Assembly (NCBI RefSeq): GCF_902497625.1
Contig: NZ_CABVGX010000030.1
Span: forward strand, 1-64,000
Direction of reading: 5' to 3'
From: Pseudomonas fluorescens
Lineage (GTDB): Bacteria > Pseudomonadota > Gammaproteobacteria > Pseudomonadales > Pseudomonadaceae
DNA length: 64,000 nt
Shown in pieces: positions 8,065-19,425 of this stretch. The position numbers and the translations under genes were made by a program. The notes below the pieces were generated by a model, which worked only from the letters and a program-made list of their open reading frames with translations, did no database searches and was not told where the DNA came from. Numbering within the stretch: position 1 is the stretch's first letter; each line of letters starts with the position of its first letter.

Positions 8065-9189
8065 TCACGCCGGCACGGCACTCAGCGATCGATTCAAGCG
8101 CTTATTGAAATCAAGCCATGCCCCCAGCAACGCCATCAACCAGACACCCACCAGAGCCGTCATCACCTGCATGACAACAGCATCATTGGTCATCGCATTG
8201 ACCATATCCGCCAACGGCGCCAGCAGCACACCCAGGCAAAAAATCTCCAGCGAATAGCGCCCCATGCGACAACTCTGCTGTGCCAGCCAGTTTTGCGTCC
8301 AGCCAGTGTCCGGCAAAAGCTTTGCAGTGACATAAGCGATCGCCAGGAAGTGCAGCAGGCGTACCGGCGACAGATCGGTCTTGCTGATCGGGTACAACAC
8401 ATTACTCAGACTCGCCGGCATCAACGCGTCGTGAATGTCCGGCCAGCGCCACAGCAGCGTAATGATCCCGGTCACCAACGCGTACGACGCCGCTGCTATA
8501 AATAGCGGCTGACGCCACACAGGACGAATCTCCCGCAAGCGTGGTCGCTGCCCCTGAATCGCCGCAAATCCGCCCAGCACAAACAGCAACTGCCACGTCA
8601 CCGGGTTGAAATACCACACGCCGTCTTTGATCGCCGCAAGGTTCCAGCCGAACGCAGGCGCGAGCAAATACACTGTCACTGATGCCGCAACCACCGCCCA
8701 GGCGTTGCGCATCATCAACGGCAGCACCAACGGCAGGCCAGCCAGAAGCACGATGTACAGCGGCAGCGGGTCCATCAGGTTCGGTTTGAAGCGCAGCAGC
8801 AACTCGTCCGTCAGCGCCTGTTGAGGATTGGTGATGAAGTGCTGCAGGCCCATTTCCTCGACCAAATCGCGGGTCTCCACGTGGCTGTTGGCGAAAAACA
8901 CGATGCCCATGAGCATCGCCAGCAGGAAAATGTGCACCACATAAAGCACCCAGGCGCGGCGCAGGATTTTCACACAGGCGATCAGATGACCGTCGCGCTG
9001 AAGGATTTTCCCGTAAGCCAGAACGGCCGCATAACCGGCGAGAAACACGAAGATCTCGGCGGCATCGCTGAAGCCGAAATTGCGCGGGGTGATTTGCCCC
9101 AGCGGGTTGTGCGGCACGTGATCCCAGAAAATGAAGATCAGCGCCAGGCCTCGAAAAAAGTCGATTCGGTGATCGCGTTCAGACGTCAT
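8065..9189 (-). CDS. opgC: OpgC-family membrane protein
   Basis: 374 residues with about ten hydrophobic segments, matching the OpgC family (acyltransferase-3-like). Characterised OpgC proteins decorate osmoregulated periplasmic glucans with succinyl groups in the inner membrane. The N-terminal family signature RDHRIDFFRGLALIFIFWDH lies at residues 5-24, followed by an NFGFSDAAEIFVFLAG segment. The ATG at 9189 fits this domain start; the longer open frame upstream runs through a REP array and is spurious. No opgGH genes are nearby. The 440 bases upstream, back to the gltB-like gene, are dominated by repeats. Confidence 0.85.
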   Translation of the reverse strand: MTSERDHRIDFFRGLALIFIFWDHVPHNPLGQITPRNFGFSDAAEIFVFLAGYAAVLAYGKILQRDGHLIACVKILRRAWVLYVVHIFLLAMLMGIVFFANSHVETRDLVEEMGLQHFITNPQQALTDELLLRFKPNLMDPLPLYIVLLAGLPLVLPLMMRNAWAVVAASVTVYLLAPAFGWNLAAIKDGVWYFNPVTWQLLFVLGGFAAIQGQRPRLREIRPVWRQPLFIAAASYALVTGIITLLWRWPDIHDALMPASLSNVLYPISKTDLSPVRLLHFLAIAYVTAKLLPDTGWTQNWLAQQSCRMGRYSLEIFCLGVLLAPLADMVNAMTNDAVVMQVMTALVGVWLMALLGAWLDFNKRLNRSLSAVPA

Positions 9190-9271
9190 GGCTGCGGGCT
9201 CGTGAACGGGTGTTGAGTAATGAGTCGTTGGTTTCAGGCATATCGTGCAAGCAGGTTTACGACGGCTTCGC

Positions 9272-9494
9272 CGCCGAACGGGGGCAAGCCCCCTCGCCAC
9301 AGGTGCCAGGCAAACGGGGCAAGCCCCCTCACCACAGGTGCCAGGCAAACGGGGCAAGCCCCCTCGCCACAGGTGCCAGGCAAACGGGGGCAAGGCCCCT
9401 CGCCACAGGTGCCAGGCGAACGGGGCAAGGCCCCTCACCACAGGTGTCAGGCGAACGTGGGCAAGCGCCTTCACCATAGGTGCCAGGCGATGCC
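9272..9494. repeat. Head-to-tail array of six REP-like units (35-36 bp period)
   Basis: Six units start near 9277, 9313, 9348, 9383, 9419 and 9454 with a period of 35-36 bases. Each contains AACGGGGCAAGCCCCCTC followed by GCCACAGGTGCCAGGC. The unit core is a Pseudomonas REP palindrome, but all units point the same way instead of forming an inverted pair. It lies between the stop at 9630 and the opgC start at 9189. It is not a CRISPR: there are no unique spacers between units. Confidence 0.95.
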
Positions 9495-9629
9495 AAAGGT
9501 TGCTCGCCGCACATCGGCGGCGCGCAGGGTGGCGCGAATTGCAGAGAATTGCAAAAAAACGGCTATTACTGAATGTCTCTACCACCGCCGTGCGGGCTCA
9601 TCTGCCTACAAATCTACGCCAGTGGGGTT

Positions 9630-14735: not shown

Positions 14736-16547
14736 TCACGCCTCCAAGGGCACCGGCGTCAGGGGGATCTGCAAGGTGAACCGGGCGCCTTTGCCCGGTC
14801 CATCGCTGTGCGCAGTGAGATGTCCATTCATTTCGATCGCGGCCAGGGCACAGCTGTGCAAACCGAAACCATGACCTTCTTTGCGGGTGGTGAACCCATG
14901 CGCAAAGATCCGCGTCATGTTTTGCGCAGCAATGCCTTCGCCGTCGTCCTTGACGCTGATTTGCAGGGTTGTCTTGTCGACGATACTGACACTCAGCGTC
15001 ATTGCGCGCGGACGCTTGCTGAGGTCGGACATCGCGTATTTGGCGTTGCTGATCAGGTTGATCAGAATCAGCAGCAGGCGATGCTTGTCGCCCATGATCG
15101 GCGGTACATCGCTGTAATCCTTGACCACGACCACCTGATGGCGGGTCAGCGCGCCGGCATTCATGCGCAAGGCATCTTCCAGCAATTCACTGATGTTCAG
15201 CGGCTCCATCAAGCTGTTGGCGCCGGCATAGGATTGTTGAGTGGAAACGATGTCCTTGATGTAGTCGACGCTTTTACTCAATTGCGCCAGCTCGTCGGCC
15301 ATGTCGCGTTGCTCCAGCGCAATGGCCTCGACCAGTTGATTGAGGTAATTGATCACTAACTTGCCCTTCTCGTCGCGGGTCAGAAAGGTGCCGAGATCAT
15401 CGGGATGTTCGTTGATCAGTTGCATGGCTTTAGCCAGTCCCAGGGCTTTGCTGCCACGCAGTTTGCGACTGACCAGATCAGCCGAAATGTTGACGCTGTT
15501 GAGCACATTGCCGACGTTGTGCAGCACATTCGTCGCGATCTCTGCCATGCCGGCCAGGCGCGCGGTGTCAAGCAGTTCGCTTTGCGTGTCCTGGAGTTCA
15601 CGCGTGCGCTGTTCAACCCGCAACTCCAGCTCGTCGTTGGCGGTCTGCAGGTCAGTGTTGACTCGATGAATTACCGCGAAACTGTGCATCAGACGAATCG
15701 CCAGGTACACCAGCAGCAACACCAACAGCACCGAGAACAGCAGCATGAGGAAGTGGTAGCGCTGGTCGACCGCGTCAGCCTGCTGCTGATCCAGATTCAG
15801 CAAGCGGGTGATCTCATCGAGGCGTTCAGCCACCGGGATCGCTTCGATGCGTTCGAGCAGGTCGTTGACCACCGGTTGCTCGCGCAGGATCAGCGCGATG
15901 TGACTGCTGAGAATCTCGATCGGGCTGTGAAACTGTTCGGGCAAGCGCAGTTTGTTCACGGCCAGTTTGTTCAGGCCCAGGAAAATGTCGGCGGCTTTTT
16001 CGTCGGAAGTGACCTGAGCAAACTCGAGGCTGCTAAGCAGCAGATCGTAAGTGTCAGTAGCTATATTTTGCAGCTGCAGTTTGTCGCCATCGACGAGCTG
16101 GGCGAGTTGCTCTTGAATATCGTCTTCGGCGGCCGGTAAAAAGGCCAGTGAGTTGCGCAGCAGGGCGTTGTGGGATTTGAACTGCTCGACCAGACGGATT
16201 TTTTCCGCGAGTGCATCGCTGAAGGCCGCGTGACTGGCGCGCCAGACCGGCGAGACGTTGCGGCCATGATTCGATTCCATGGTGTTGAAGCGTTCCCACA
16301 ACTCGGTGATCTGGACCAAAGGCATCACCAGCGGATCGTAGTTGGGATCGGTAGCGACCCTGGCCTTGAGAATCTGCGACTCCCACTGTGCGTTCAACTG
16401 CTTGATCCGGCCGATGAGGTCTCGAGAGTCGGCGTAGGTGGATGTCTGATTCGAATTCGACTTGAGGTACAGAAACAGCAGGGTCGACGCCAATAGAACA
16501 GCTGCCAGACTGAGCAGGATCAGGCTGCGTCCGCGGGACATTTTCAT
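14736..16547 (-). CDS. Membrane sensor histidine kinase with all-helical periplasmic domain (DAHL-like)
   Basis: 603 residues. Helix TM1 spans about 8-28, a helical periplasmic domain 30-262 (LNAQWESQILKAR…NYDPLV, DAHL-like), TM2 265-287 and a coiled coil 295-330. His343 in TNVLHNVGNVLNS is the likely phospho-acceptor. The ATPase domain has Asn501, DDGEG (534-538) and HGFGLH (559-564). The ATG at 16547 overlaps the peroxidase stop as ATGA and has GGGAGGG nine bases upstream, so translation is coupled. It is the third gene of an operon with a c-di-GMP response regulator and a cytochrome c peroxidase; I infer that it senses a redox or peroxide-related cue and phosphorylates the regulator. Confidence 0.9.
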   Translation of the reverse strand: MKMSRGRSLILLSLAAVLLASTLLFLYLKSNSNQTSTYADSRDLIGRIKQLNAQWESQILKARVATDPNYDPLVMPLVQITELWERFNTMESNHGRNVSPVWRASHAAFSDALAEKIRLVEQFKSHNALLRNSLAFLPAAEDDIQEQLAQLVDGDKLQLQNIATDTYDLLLSSLEFAQVTSDEKAADIFLGLNKLAVNKLRLPEQFHSPIEILSSHIALILREQPVVNDLLERIEAIPVAERLDEITRLLNLDQQQADAVDQRYHFLMLLFSVLLVLLLVYLAIRLMHSFAVIHRVNTDLQTANDELELRVEQRTRELQDTQSELLDTARLAGMAEIATNVLHNVGNVLNSVNISADLVSRKLRGSKALGLAKAMQLINEHPDDLGTFLTRDEKGKLVINYLNQLVEAIALEQRDMADELAQLSKSVDYIKDIVSTQQSYAGANSLMEPLNISELLEDALRMNAGALTRHQVVVVKDYSDVPPIMGDKHRLLLILINLISNAKYAMSDLSKRPRAMTLSVSIVDKTTLQISVKDDGEGIAAQNMTRIFAHGFTTRKEGHGFGLHSCALAAIEMNGHLTAHSDGPGKGARFTLQIPLTPVPLEA

Positions 16548-17500
16548 AAGGGTTTGCCCTCCCATTCACCGGTCAGGGTCTTGAGAAATTTGATGATCAG
16601 GGTCTTGTCCTCGGCCGATGGAATGCGCCCCAGCTGATACCTGAACATGACCTCTACCGCTTCTTCGAGGGTTTCGGCCGAGCCGTCATGAAAGTACGGT
16701 GCGGTCACGGCGACGTTGCGCAGGCTCGGCACCTTGAACACGTTGCGATCCATCTCGTCCCGGGTAATCTGATAGCGTCCCAGGTCAACTTGGACGACAT
16801 TGCCGCGAGCCTTGAAGTAATCGTCCATTACCCCAAATTTCTGCAGCATGTTGCCGCCAATATTCACGCCTTGATGGCAAGCAATGCAGCCGCTGCTTTT
16901 GAAGCGCTGGTAGCCAGACTTTTCCTCCTGAGTGAGGATCCCGGTGTCGCCTTGCAGGTACTGATCGAAACGCGAGTTGCTGCTGATCAGCGTTCGTTCG
17001 TAAGTGGTGAGGGCATTTTTCACGTTGGTTTCAGTCACCCCGTCGGGGTACGCCTTTTCGAACGATGCCCGGTAGGTGGCATCGGCGCCCAGCATCCGCA
17101 CCACGTCCCTCCAGTTGCCGCTCATTTCGCCCGGGCTCTGAACTGCTTCGTGAACCTGGGCTGGCAGCGTCGTGCTGCGGCCATCCCAGAAGTGCCTGAA
17201 GTTAAGGGCAGCGTTGAAAATGCTGGGGGTATTCACCGAAACCGGCAGACCGAGCACGCCTATGGAAAATGCCACGGAATCAGCACCACCTTTGTTAAGT
17301 TGATGGCAATTAGCGCAAGACAGCGTGTTGTTGGCTGACAGCCGCGTTTCGTTGAACAGCTGACGTCCCAGCTCTACTTGCAATGCATTCAGCGGCGGCA
17401 CCGCAGGCAACGGTTTGATCGGTTCTTCGAGCATCCCGGCCCGGGCGTTCAGGTTGAGGCCGAACAGCATCAGAATCAGCAAAATCAGGGACGGCGACAT
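16544..17500 (-). CDS. Periplasmic di-heme cytochrome c peroxidase family protein
   Basis: 318 residues. A signal peptide (about 1-21, ending NARA) precedes two c-type heme motifs, CANCH (62-66) and CIACH (205-209), with family elements FWDGR near 105 and PYFHDGSAETLEEAV near 268-282. Such proteins reduce hydrogen peroxide in the periplasm using electrons from small cytochromes or azurin. The ATG at 17500 has AGGAA upstream. It lies between a REC-GGDEF-EAL gene (59 bases upstream) and a histidine kinase gene (4-base overlap), which suggests a signalling or redox-sensing role rather than only detoxification (inference). Confidence 0.92.
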   Translation of the reverse strand: MSPSLILLILMLFGLNLNARAGMLEEPIKPLPAVPPLNALQVELGRQLFNETRLSANNTLSCANCHQLNKGGADSVAFSIGVLGLPVSVNTPSIFNAALNFRHFWDGRSTTLPAQVHEAVQSPGEMSGNWRDVVRMLGADATYRASFEKAYPDGVTETNVKNALTTYERTLISSNSRFDQYLQGDTGILTQEEKSGYQRFKSSGCIACHQGVNIGGNMLQKFGVMDDYFKARGNVVQVDLGRYQITRDEMDRNVFKVPSLRNVAVTAPYFHDGSAETLEEAVEVMFRYQLGRIPSAEDKTLIIKFLKTLTGEWEGKPL

Positions 17501-17559
17501 CAGATGATTCCTTGGTTGAACGCCCGCGTGCCGTTGCGCACCTATCACAGTGGGGCAGA

Positions 17560-19425
17560 CTAAGCGGTCTTCACCGATCGCAGGTATTGCACGAACAGGT
17601 CCGGTGTGACCGGTTTACTGAAGTAATAACCCTGCACTTCCTCGCATTGGCGGGCTTTAAGGAATTCCAGTTGCTCAAGGGTTTCCACGCCTTCGGCAAT
17701 GATGGTCAGGTTCAGACTGCGGCCCAGACTGATGATCGCGCTGACCAGTGCTGCGTCATTGCTGTCGCTGCTCAAACCACGGATGAATGACTGATCGATT
17801 TTCAACACATCAATCGGGAACCGACGCAGATAGCTGAGGCTGGAATAGCCGGTGCCAAAATCGTCAATGGCCAGGCGAACCCCCAATGCCTTGATCCGCT
17901 TCAACGTATCGACCGTAGCTTCGACGTTCTGCATCAGTACGCCTTCGGTGATTTCCAGCTCCAGACAGGTCGGATCCATTCCGGTTTGCTGGAGGATCTG
18001 TTCGATACCTTCAACAAAATCGCGCTGGCGAAAGTCGATCGCCGAGACGTTTACTGACATGCAGATCCGCGGTAGACCGGCCGCCAGCCAGGCACACGTT
18101 TGTCGACACGCCTGGGCCAACACCCAGCGGCTGAGCGGGACAATGAGCCCGCTGTCTTCGGCAACTCCGATAAAGTCCGAAGGGTAGACGTATCCCTGGT
18201 CAGGTTTTTCCCAGCGGATCAAGGCCTCGGCGCCTACCACCTGGCCGCTGCCAAGGTCCAGTTTTGGCTGGTAATGCAAGACAAATTCATTGCGCTCCAG
18301 CGCCAGCCGAATGCCGGTCTCGATGCTTTGCTGGTCGCGGGCACGCTGATTCATCTCTTCAATGAAGAAGCTGAACTCGTTTGGGCCGCTTTCCTTGACG
18401 TTACGCATCGCGGTTTCGGCTTTTTTGATCAGGTCGATAGCGTCCAGGCCATCGTCAGGGTAAATGCTGATGCCCAGGGAAGCAGTAACGCTCAAATCGT
18501 GGCCGGCAATGTGCTGCGGACGGCGGATGGACTTCAGCAGCTTTTCGGCAATGCCCTTGGTTTGCTGCGGATGGCGAATGTCGGCAAGGATCAACACGAA
18601 TTCGTCCGAGCCGTAACGAAACACCGAGTCTGACTCGCGCACGGTCGCAATCAGGTTTTGCCCGACCCGTTTGAGCATTTCGTCCCCGGCCGGATGCCCG
18701 AGGGCATTGTTGATACGTTTGAAGCGGTCGAGCCCGAGAAACATCACCGCCAGTTGCTTGTCATGCCGGCGCGACAGGGCCAGCGATTGATTCAGGCGAT
18801 CGCCGAGCAAAGTGCTGTTTGGCAGTTCGGTGAGCACGTCGTATTGCAACAGATGCGAAACCTTGAGCAGTTCGTGAACTCTGGCCTCGATGGTCTGCTC
18901 CAGGCTGAGCATCTTGCTGGCCGCGTCCTGGGCCATCTGCCATTTCCAGGTGAGGGCGCTGGCCATCTGGCGGATTTCCAGACTGTCGAAAGGCTTTTTC
19001 AACACCAGCAACTGGTCGCCGAACTCCAGCCGGTCAGCCATGGCTTCCCAGCTGTAGTCCGAATACGCCGTGCACAGGGCGATTTGCAGCTGCGGATCGA
19101 CTTTCCACAGCTGTTCGATCGTCTCCAGACCGTCCCAGCCCGGAGGCATGCGCATGTCGGTGAATACCAGCGAATAAGGTCTTCCCTCAGCCAGCGCGCG
19201 TTTCACCAACTGCAAGGCCTCCTGGCCCTGATAGGCGGAATCGAGTTCGAATGTCGGCCGTTGTGGCGGCAAGGTGCCAAACAGTGCCGCTTCGGTGTCT
19301 GCCAGAGATTGCTCGCCCTCGGGTGCCGGACTGAGGATTTTGCGAAAATCCAGATGTATGGAGGGTGTATCGTCGACGATCAGAATGCGCCGATTGGTCC
19401 GGGCCAGCGGTCTGCTCATCGACAT
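17560..19425 (-). CDS. Response regulator with GGDEF and EAL domains (c-di-GMP phosphodiesterase)
   Basis: 621 residues: receiver 12-160 (Asp18/19, phospho-acceptor Asp90 in FTDMRMPPGWDG, Lys143/144), a coiled linker 165-195, GGDEF-like domain 195-360 and EAL domain 365-615. The GGDEF signature reads GSDEF (272-276), so cyclase activity is doubtful. The EAL domain keeps EALIRW (400-405), VNVSAIDF, LEITE, IDDFGTGYSSL, KIDQSF and AEGVE, so phosphodiesterase activity is expected. It is the first gene of the peroxidase/kinase operon, and the kinase at 14736 is its probable partner. The likely output is phosphorylation-controlled c-di-GMP breakdown. Confidence 0.92.
   Translation of the reverse strand: MSMSRPLARTNRRILIVDDTPSIHLDFRKILSPAPEGEQSLADTEAALFGTLPPQRPTFELDSAYQGQEALQLVKRALAEGRPYSLVFTDMRMPPGWDGLETIEQLWKVDPQLQIALCTAYSDYSWEAMADRLEFGDQLLVLKKPFDSLEIRQMASALTWKWQMAQDAASKMLSLEQTIEARVHELLKVSHLLQYDVLTELPNSTLLGDRLNQSLALSRRHDKQLAVMFLGLDRFKRINNALGHPAGDEMLKRVGQNLIATVRESDSVFRYGSDEFVLILADIRHPQQTKGIAEKLLKSIRRPQHIAGHDLSVTASLGISIYPDDGLDAIDLIKKAETAMRNVKESGPNEFSFFIEEMNQRARDQQSIETGIRLALERNEFVLHYQPKLDLGSGQVVGAEALIRWEKPDQGYVYPSDFIGVAEDSGLIVPLSRWVLAQACRQTCAWLAAGLPRICMSVNVSAIDFRQRDFVEGIEQILQQTGMDPTCLELEITEGVLMQNVEATVDTLKRIKALGVRLAIDDFGTGYSSLSYLRRFPIDVLKIDQSFIRGLSSDSNDAALVSAIISLGRSLNLTIIAEGVETLEQLEFLKARQCEEVQGYYFSKPVTPDLFVQYLRSVKTA

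Follow-up and report, generated by a model that had tools for sequence, protein, structure and literature searches.

Gene organization of the locus

The stretch of DNA analysed here (the window) comprises 64,000 nucleotides of Pseudomonas fluorescens, positions 1 to 64,000 of contig NZ_CABVGX010000030.1 in the assembly GCF_902497625.1. It contains three adjacent genes coding for a cyclic di-GMP (c-di-GMP) response regulator, a secreted di-heme cytochrome c peroxidase (CCP) and a sensor histidine kinase with a periplasmic DAHL domain. We propose that the CCP and the DAHL domain may act as one periplasmic sensing unit. The features of the locus are as follows.

17560..19425, minus strand: REC-GGDEF-EAL response regulator, 621 aa (Pfam REC, GGDEF and EAL; site-by-site alignment with 74 relatives)
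16544..17500, minus strand: secreted di-heme CCP, 318-aa precursor (Pfam CCP_MauG, 3.6e-53; PDB relatives 1iqc and 9qdt; residue comparison; tree)
14736..16547, minus strand: DAHL sensor histidine kinase, 603 aa, with the H box HNVGN containing His343, and HATPase_c (list of open reading frames; Pfam)
15750..16460, minus strand: periplasmic all-helical DAHL sensor domain, residues 36-272 in the 609-aa reading of the kinase (Pfam; predicted structure)

The order of transcription is regulator, CCP and kinase. A preliminary description, made from the sequence alone, had reported three open reading frames (ORFs) on the same strand, and all three are present with the ends given there. The CCP ORF extends from 17548 to 16544 (334 aa), and the probable start is the ATG at 17500, which is preceded by AAGGA. 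With this start, the gap between the regulator and the CCP becomes 59 bp instead of 11. The kinase ORF extends from 16565 to 14736 (609 aa), and the ATG at 16547 gives the 603-aa form. This start and the stop of the CCP share exactly four bases (ATGA), in agreement with the four-base overlap described before. A consensus scan, which proves little, gave no promoter-like site (1.7 expected) and four terminator-like sites (5.3 expected). Residues of the CCP are numbered according to the 334-aa ORF (16 is subtracted for the 318-aa start). The DAHL residues D77, N138, S139 and H222 follow the 609-aa reading, and His343 follows the 603-aa reading.

The other assignments of the preliminary description were refined by the domain searches. 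The secreted protein with CANCH and CIACH is a CCP_MauG protein with a signal peptide, as judged by eye. The helical periplasmic domain of the kinase corresponds to Pfam DAHL, and His343 was confirmed as the phospho-acceptor histidine of HNVGN.

Pairing of CCP and DAHL across genomes

When 398 genomes from across the phylum were searched with Pfam DAHL, 70 matches exceeded the cut-off and 12 were weaker, while no DAHL domain was found in 14 control genomes. A second sample consisted of 369 genomes of the class and added 58 matches over the cut-off. A CCP gene lies directly upstream on the same strand in 60 of the 70 cases in the first sample and in 53 of the 58 in the second, 113 of 128 in total. 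This frequency is far above chance. With the longest-ORF starts, 55 of the 60 pairs in the first sample overlap, 32 of them by exactly 4 nt. Four of the 15 DAHL genes without an upstream CCP (L187, L191, L197 and L341) have less than 1.2 kb of upstream sequence, being cut by contig ends. No CCP was found beside the 16 below-cut-off DAHL matches that were examined (all 12 of the first sample and 4 of the 15 of the second). The same holds for eight kinases with a related core and no tblastn match to the window DAHL (L114-L119, L121 and L122), within at most about 7 kb on either side (less at contig ends).

Plasmids were also inspected. Among the 40 records listed of 169 that match the CCP, 12 were opened, some of them chosen because their annotation named a kinase. 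The next gene after the CCP is a kinase in eight of the 12, and all eight kinases have a DAHL domain over the cut-off. These pairs are from Vitreoscilla, Gloeocapsa, Indioceanicola, Rhizobium (three) and Agrobacterium (two). No kinase adjoins the CCP in the Paraburkholderia, Methylotuvimicrobium and Azospirillum plasmids, and the Persicobacter record is unannotated at that place. As Gloeocapsa is a cyanobacterium, the CCP-DAHL pair is found in at least one case beyond the phylum.

The sequence distances of the CCPs and of their DAHL domains are correlated, with r of 0.537 for 111 of the 113 pairs, two short CCP fragments being left out by length. When partners were swapped within genomes, which was confined to the 19 genomes with more than one CCP-DAHL pair, none of 2000 swaps reached this value (mean 0.470, maximum 0.530). 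The result indicates that each CCP diverges along with its own DAHL partner, paralogs included, which would be expected if the two form a dedicated pair. One genome (G096) carries five separate CCP-DAHL pairs (L215, L159, L161, L164 and L188), and is a useful natural set for studying partner specificity.

Peroxidases linked to DAHL

The window CCP has the features of a bacterial di-heme CCP, namely the CCP_MauG domain, two CxxCH motifs, and W121, Q131, E141 and M301, which we take to be the catalytic and ligand positions. No second CCP_MauG gene was found in this genome. We compared 60 DAHL-linked CCPs with 40 others, which were picked by hand from an incomplete list of CCP places. Both CxxCH motifs are kept in all 60 linked CCPs, and so are W121 and M301, while Q131 is present in 56 and E141 in 49. 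In classical CCPs, a histidine of a mobile loop ligates the peroxidatic heme at rest, and must move off before the enzyme works. This residue (position 98 here, presumably His71 in the P. aeruginosa numbering) is found in none of the 60 linked CCPs, versus 23 of the 40 others; the window protein has Val98, and does not belong to the classical, reductively activated CcpA subgroup. Because the residue that has to move in the classical enzymes is missing, the linked CCPs may be permanently ready for reaction.

The linked CCPs share marks of their own, Q226 (59/60), N233 (60/60) and W146 (58/60). The window CCP belongs to this group, as it has no mobile-loop histidine and carries the HQG..GGN mark. 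Five of the 40 comparison CCPs (L281, L283, L286, L289 and L290) have W146 and Q226, and all of these except L289 also have N233. Apart from the single rows L220 and L286, the CCPs that are linked or marked lie on one side of a quick likelihood tree, the deep forks of which have moderate support (about 85-90). On this tree, four changes of the DAHL-linked label are required, compared with 31.5 in shuffles. In MauG, a tyrosine replaces methionine as the distal ligand of the second heme. A MauG-like role was considered for the window CCP and rejected, since Met301 is present in 60/60 linked CCPs and the NCBIfam MauG score is 132.9 against a cut-off of 443.85.

Four of the five marked comparison CCPs (L281, L283, L286 and L289) have a hybrid kinase directly downstream on the same strand, and the contig ends at L290. 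The periplasmic regions of these four kinases, about 210 aa, have no Pfam match. They are possibly strongly diverged DAHL domains; aligned to DAHL by hhalign over 181 columns, they gave an E-value of 0.0057 but a probability of 6.4. Outside the linked and marked group, none of 35 CCPs has a same-strand kinase directly downstream, according to tblastn of about 4 kb on either side with the cytoplasmic parts of DAHL kinases as queries. An opposite-strand kinase match lies about 0.3 kb away from one of the 35 (L287), and the other matches are at least 1.8 kb off.

The DAHL sensor domain

The window kinase matches DAHL (PF19443) with 160.8 bits against a cut-off of 38 (E 5.6e-47) and HATPase_c with 66.5 against 26.4. 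Having both the sensor domain over the cut-off and the kinase core, it is a DAHL sensor histidine kinase. The structure of residues 36-272 was predicted together with 35 Pseudomonas relatives. The model is all-helical with a mean pLDDT of 84. Its best structural match is the TorS sensor domain (3i9y; Z 17.1, root-mean-square deviation 3.0, 212 residues aligned), and the TorS-TorT complexes 3o1h, 3o1i and 3o1j match at Z of about 15. The first nine structural matches are TorS, McpS or PilJ sensor domains only. Foldseek gave a probability of 1.00 and TM-scores of 0.66/0.68.

The residues D77, N138, S139 and H222 went well with CCP linkage in the first sample, where 60 linked domains were compared with 13 unlinked ones, including three Pseudomonas paralogs. 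In the second sample, the linked domains have N138 in 44/53, S139 in 38/53 and H222 in 43/53, and the unlinked ones in 3/5, 2/5 and 3/5. D77 falls in alignment gaps in 34 of the 53 linked rows of the second sample; among the 13 unlinked domains it is found in two or five, depending on the alignment. Four Pseudomonas DAHL kinases (L111, L112, L113 and L167) have no peroxidase in the available stretch, and most of their CCP-associated residues are changed; the identity in the sensor domain is 33-37% for L111-L113.

The c-di-GMP regulators and other outputs

The receiver of the window regulator carries Asp90 and Lys143. Its GGDEF motif is degenerate (GSDEF), lacking the GG(D/E)EF of a diguanylate cyclase, and the second glycine is replaced by Ser, Ala or Thr in 74/74 Pseudomonas relatives. 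All the EAL catalytic positions that were checked, as in a phosphodiesterase, are intact in the window protein and in 74/74 relatives, and so are the receiver Asp and Lys in 74/74. Because the GGDEF motif is degenerate while the EAL and receiver sites are intact, the regulator is most likely a c-di-GMP phosphodiesterase switched by phosphorylation. A whole-genome search with the entire regulator found no close relative of its receiver elsewhere in the genome. Most of the other matches begin no earlier than the GGDEF region, and the few touching the receiver are weak (for example residues 85-351, 30%).

The neighbourhood was examined in 80 loci. They were the top-ranking matches of the window kinase, so that all are from Pseudomonas and the sample is not random. 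In 79 of the 80, the CCP immediately precedes the kinase, far above chance, and the EAL regulator is present in 75. A second regulator, REC-PAS-GGDEF-EAL, is located upstream in 54 loci (for example L031 2778-5147). Its GGDEF motif is intact in 54/54, and its EAL domain is degenerate, the catalytic Asn being changed in at least 53 of the 54. Judging from these sites, the two c-di-GMP regulators would form an opposing pair with related receivers in 54/80 loci. Downstream, a REC-histidine kinase is found in 77 loci, and it overlaps the DAHL kinase in L031. In most of 11 loci, the receivers of the second regulator and of the REC-kinase are about 52-64% identical to that of the window regulator; one stretch of L067 has 44%. 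The window and L032 have neither of these two additional genes. In L043 (7900-8200), no CCP gene separates the EAL regulator from the DAHL kinase, and this locus has no REC-kinase either. It offers a natural strain in which a peroxidase-free form of the system can be compared.

These additional genes bear on two points. A circuit consisting of the EAL regulator only was set aside, as the relatives carry two further regulators. It had been said that another cognate partner of the kinase would speak against the proposed circuit. Such candidates exist in the REC-kinase (77/80) and the GGDEF regulator (54/80), both missing in this genome; as the EAL regulator persists in 75/80 loci, the objection has partial force only.

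The outputs attached to the sensor were scanned in 52 of the 60 CCP-linked DAHL proteins (E-value 1e-5), the rest being incomplete or more than 75% identical to a kept one. HATPase was found in 46, HisKA in 38, a receiver in 33, Hpt in 18, GGDEF in four and EAL in two. The L218 locus encodes, behind a CCP, a fusion of DAHL with PAS-GGDEF-EAL-CZB, which places the sensor and c-di-GMP domains in one chain. As the domains fused to CCP-linked DAHL are varied, the CCP-DAHL sensor is general, with the c-di-GMP link of the window as one of its outputs. The conserved unit is CCP plus DAHL, and most of the receptors are histidine kinases. The dedicated redox-to-c-di-GMP circuit of the preliminary description is too narrow in general, with GGDEF fused in only 4/52 and EAL in 2/52.

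Proposed mechanism and alternatives

The preliminary description had suggested that the peroxidase may be a periplasmic sensor or a producer of a cue read by the kinase. The conserved adjacency of the genes, the nearly separate CCP group, the paired divergence and the TorS-like predicted fold strengthen this suggestion, and with moderate confidence we infer that the CCP is a co-sensor and DAHL its receptor. We propose that the CCP and DAHL form one periplasmic sensing unit, in which the CCP is read by DAHL through contact and the output passes via the EAL regulator; the probability of this proposal is roughly 0.58. The secreted two-heme peroxidase would meet peroxide or a redox partner in the periplasm. 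The DAHL domain would then read the state of the CCP (peroxide-reacted, oxidised or reduced) by contact, as TorS does via TorT. The signal would pass the membrane and set the phosphorylation at His343. The REC-GGDEF-EAL protein would then take over the phosphate at its receiver, and its intact EAL domain would hydrolyse c-di-GMP. The best precedent for such a mechanism is TorS, solved in complex with TorT, as a periplasmic protein is read there by a helical receptor.

Several observations weigh against this proposal. Simple co-inheritance alone can also yield the paired divergence. For fourteen DAHL kinases, the available stretch contains no CCP (L111-L113, L167, L184, L185, L186, L189, L193, L195, L314, L357, L367 and L368, with only about 1.5 kb upstream for L314 and L367), and four of them (L185, L195, L314 and L357) retain at least three of the four CCP-associated DAHL residues. 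As marks of CCP dependence, D77, N138, S139 and H222 held less well in the second sample, and several unlinked domains keep the motif. The L043 locus (Pseudomonas fluorescens PS862) lacks the CCP and keeps the kinase and both c-di-GMP regulators. In most relatives the REC-kinase, and often the GGDEF regulator, are possible further targets of the kinase. Concerning the fold, McpS (Z 16.9) fits the DAHL model level with TorS, and no Foldseek match has an E-value below 0.001 (best 1.4e-3). The match to TorS is good rather than certain, because helical models with no clear match typically reach Z of 14 according to the tool's note, and the margin is modest.

The fit of McpS points to another explanation, that the CCP removes or makes a small molecule (peroxide or an oxidised product) and DAHL binds this molecule itself, with no contact between the proteins. 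We keep it because the McpS sensor was solved with malate and succinate bound, and the conserved polar D77, N138, S139 and H222 could line a ligand pocket. A diffusing cue, however, needs neither the co-divergence of CCP and DAHL within multi-pair genomes nor the uniform overlapping gene order, and we regard this explanation as rather unlikely. It is also conceivable that the CCP is merely an enzyme of detoxification or respiration, that the kinase responds to another signal, and that co-expression from a shared operon is the only link between the two. The catalytic positions retained in most linked CCPs, the lack of another CCP_MauG gene in the genome and the kinase kept without a CCP in L043 would suit such an enzyme. 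Co-expression alone would not account for an arrangement that spans Pseudomonadota and recurs in a cyanobacterium, for the nearly separate group of linked CCPs with its own marks, or for the absence of a same-strand kinase behind all 35 other CCPs. We consider it improbable.

A further alternative concerns only the output and is compatible with any of the above. The main target of the kinase may be the REC-kinase of the relatives, the EAL protein being secondary and the window form a reduced remnant. The REC-kinase is slightly more frequent in the 80 loci than the EAL regulator, and more so than the GGDEF regulator, and the window and L032 lack both extra genes. On the other hand, the phosphorylation and EAL sites of the window regulator are intact, and the genome search with this regulator gave no other close relative of its receiver. 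We regard the remnant as unlikely, and retain the EAL regulator as the probable output of the sensing unit in the window.

Comparison with known systems

TorS is the trimethylamine N-oxide receptor, and TorT is a periplasmic binding protein encoded beside it. CCP-DAHL resembles it in that the sensor domain of the histidine kinase is periplasmic and consists of helices only, and in the general fold, which is predicted on the DAHL side; the DAHL model falls within the TorS sensor fold in the comparison with 3i9y. TorS was solved in complexes with TorT, according to the titles of 3o1h, 3o1i and 3o1j. Unlike TorT, the candidate partner of DAHL is a two-heme peroxidase. DAHL is also a Pfam family of its own, and no family named after TorS is among the 13 listed for the window kinase.

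Classical di-heme CCPs (1iqc and 1eb7, presumably from Nitrosomonas and P. aeruginosa) belong to the same family as the window CCP, with two CxxCH motifs and the conserved Trp, Gln, Glu and Met. The mobile-loop histidine is present in 1iqc (SIGH) and missing in the linked CCPs, which differ also in that most have Q226, N233 and W146, and in being gene-coupled to a kinase.

VirA reads the sugar protein ChvE. Three annotated examples of VirA-like rhizobial kinases (NCBIfam PRK13837) have DAHL directly behind a CCP. The window kinase matches PRK13837 over residues 20-324 with 136.2 bits, far under the cut-off of 647, and thus is not a VirA-like member. Regarding the c-di-GMP output, Lpl0330 of Legionella reportedly has an unusual H box. 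In the pair Lpl0330/Lpl0329, a kinase controls a bifunctional c-di-GMP partner, according to the title of a 2011 paper. ArrS/ArrR of Aeromonas was set aside as a comparison, the sensor being of another type.

To our knowledge, little has been learned about how bacteria sense peroxide or their respiratory redox state beyond the cytoplasm. Among the matches listed in a search of the open literature, with subscription journals mostly outside it, no paper on the pairing of DAHL and peroxidase was found. PF19443 is listed in an alignment benchmark paper. We consider the chances about even that CCP-DAHL pairs represent an undescribed, widespread class of periplasmic redox receptors, in which a specialised branch of two-heme peroxidases would serve as the ligand-sensing subunit of TorS-fold receptor kinases, with interchangeable outputs including c-di-GMP turnover, in Pseudomonadota and at least one cyanobacterium. 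If the peroxidase doubles as the sensor of a large receptor family, the DAHL domain gains a function, and the existence of a peroxidase branch without the usual activation histidine is explained. Periplasmic redox chemistry would then be tied directly to biofilm signalling in Pseudomonas.

Apart from this locus, a tandem repeat is located at 9275-9490 of the window, with a unit of 35 bp, about six copies and 91% matches. It lies in the 5' part of a minus-strand ORF (8065-9585), the true start of which is probably later.

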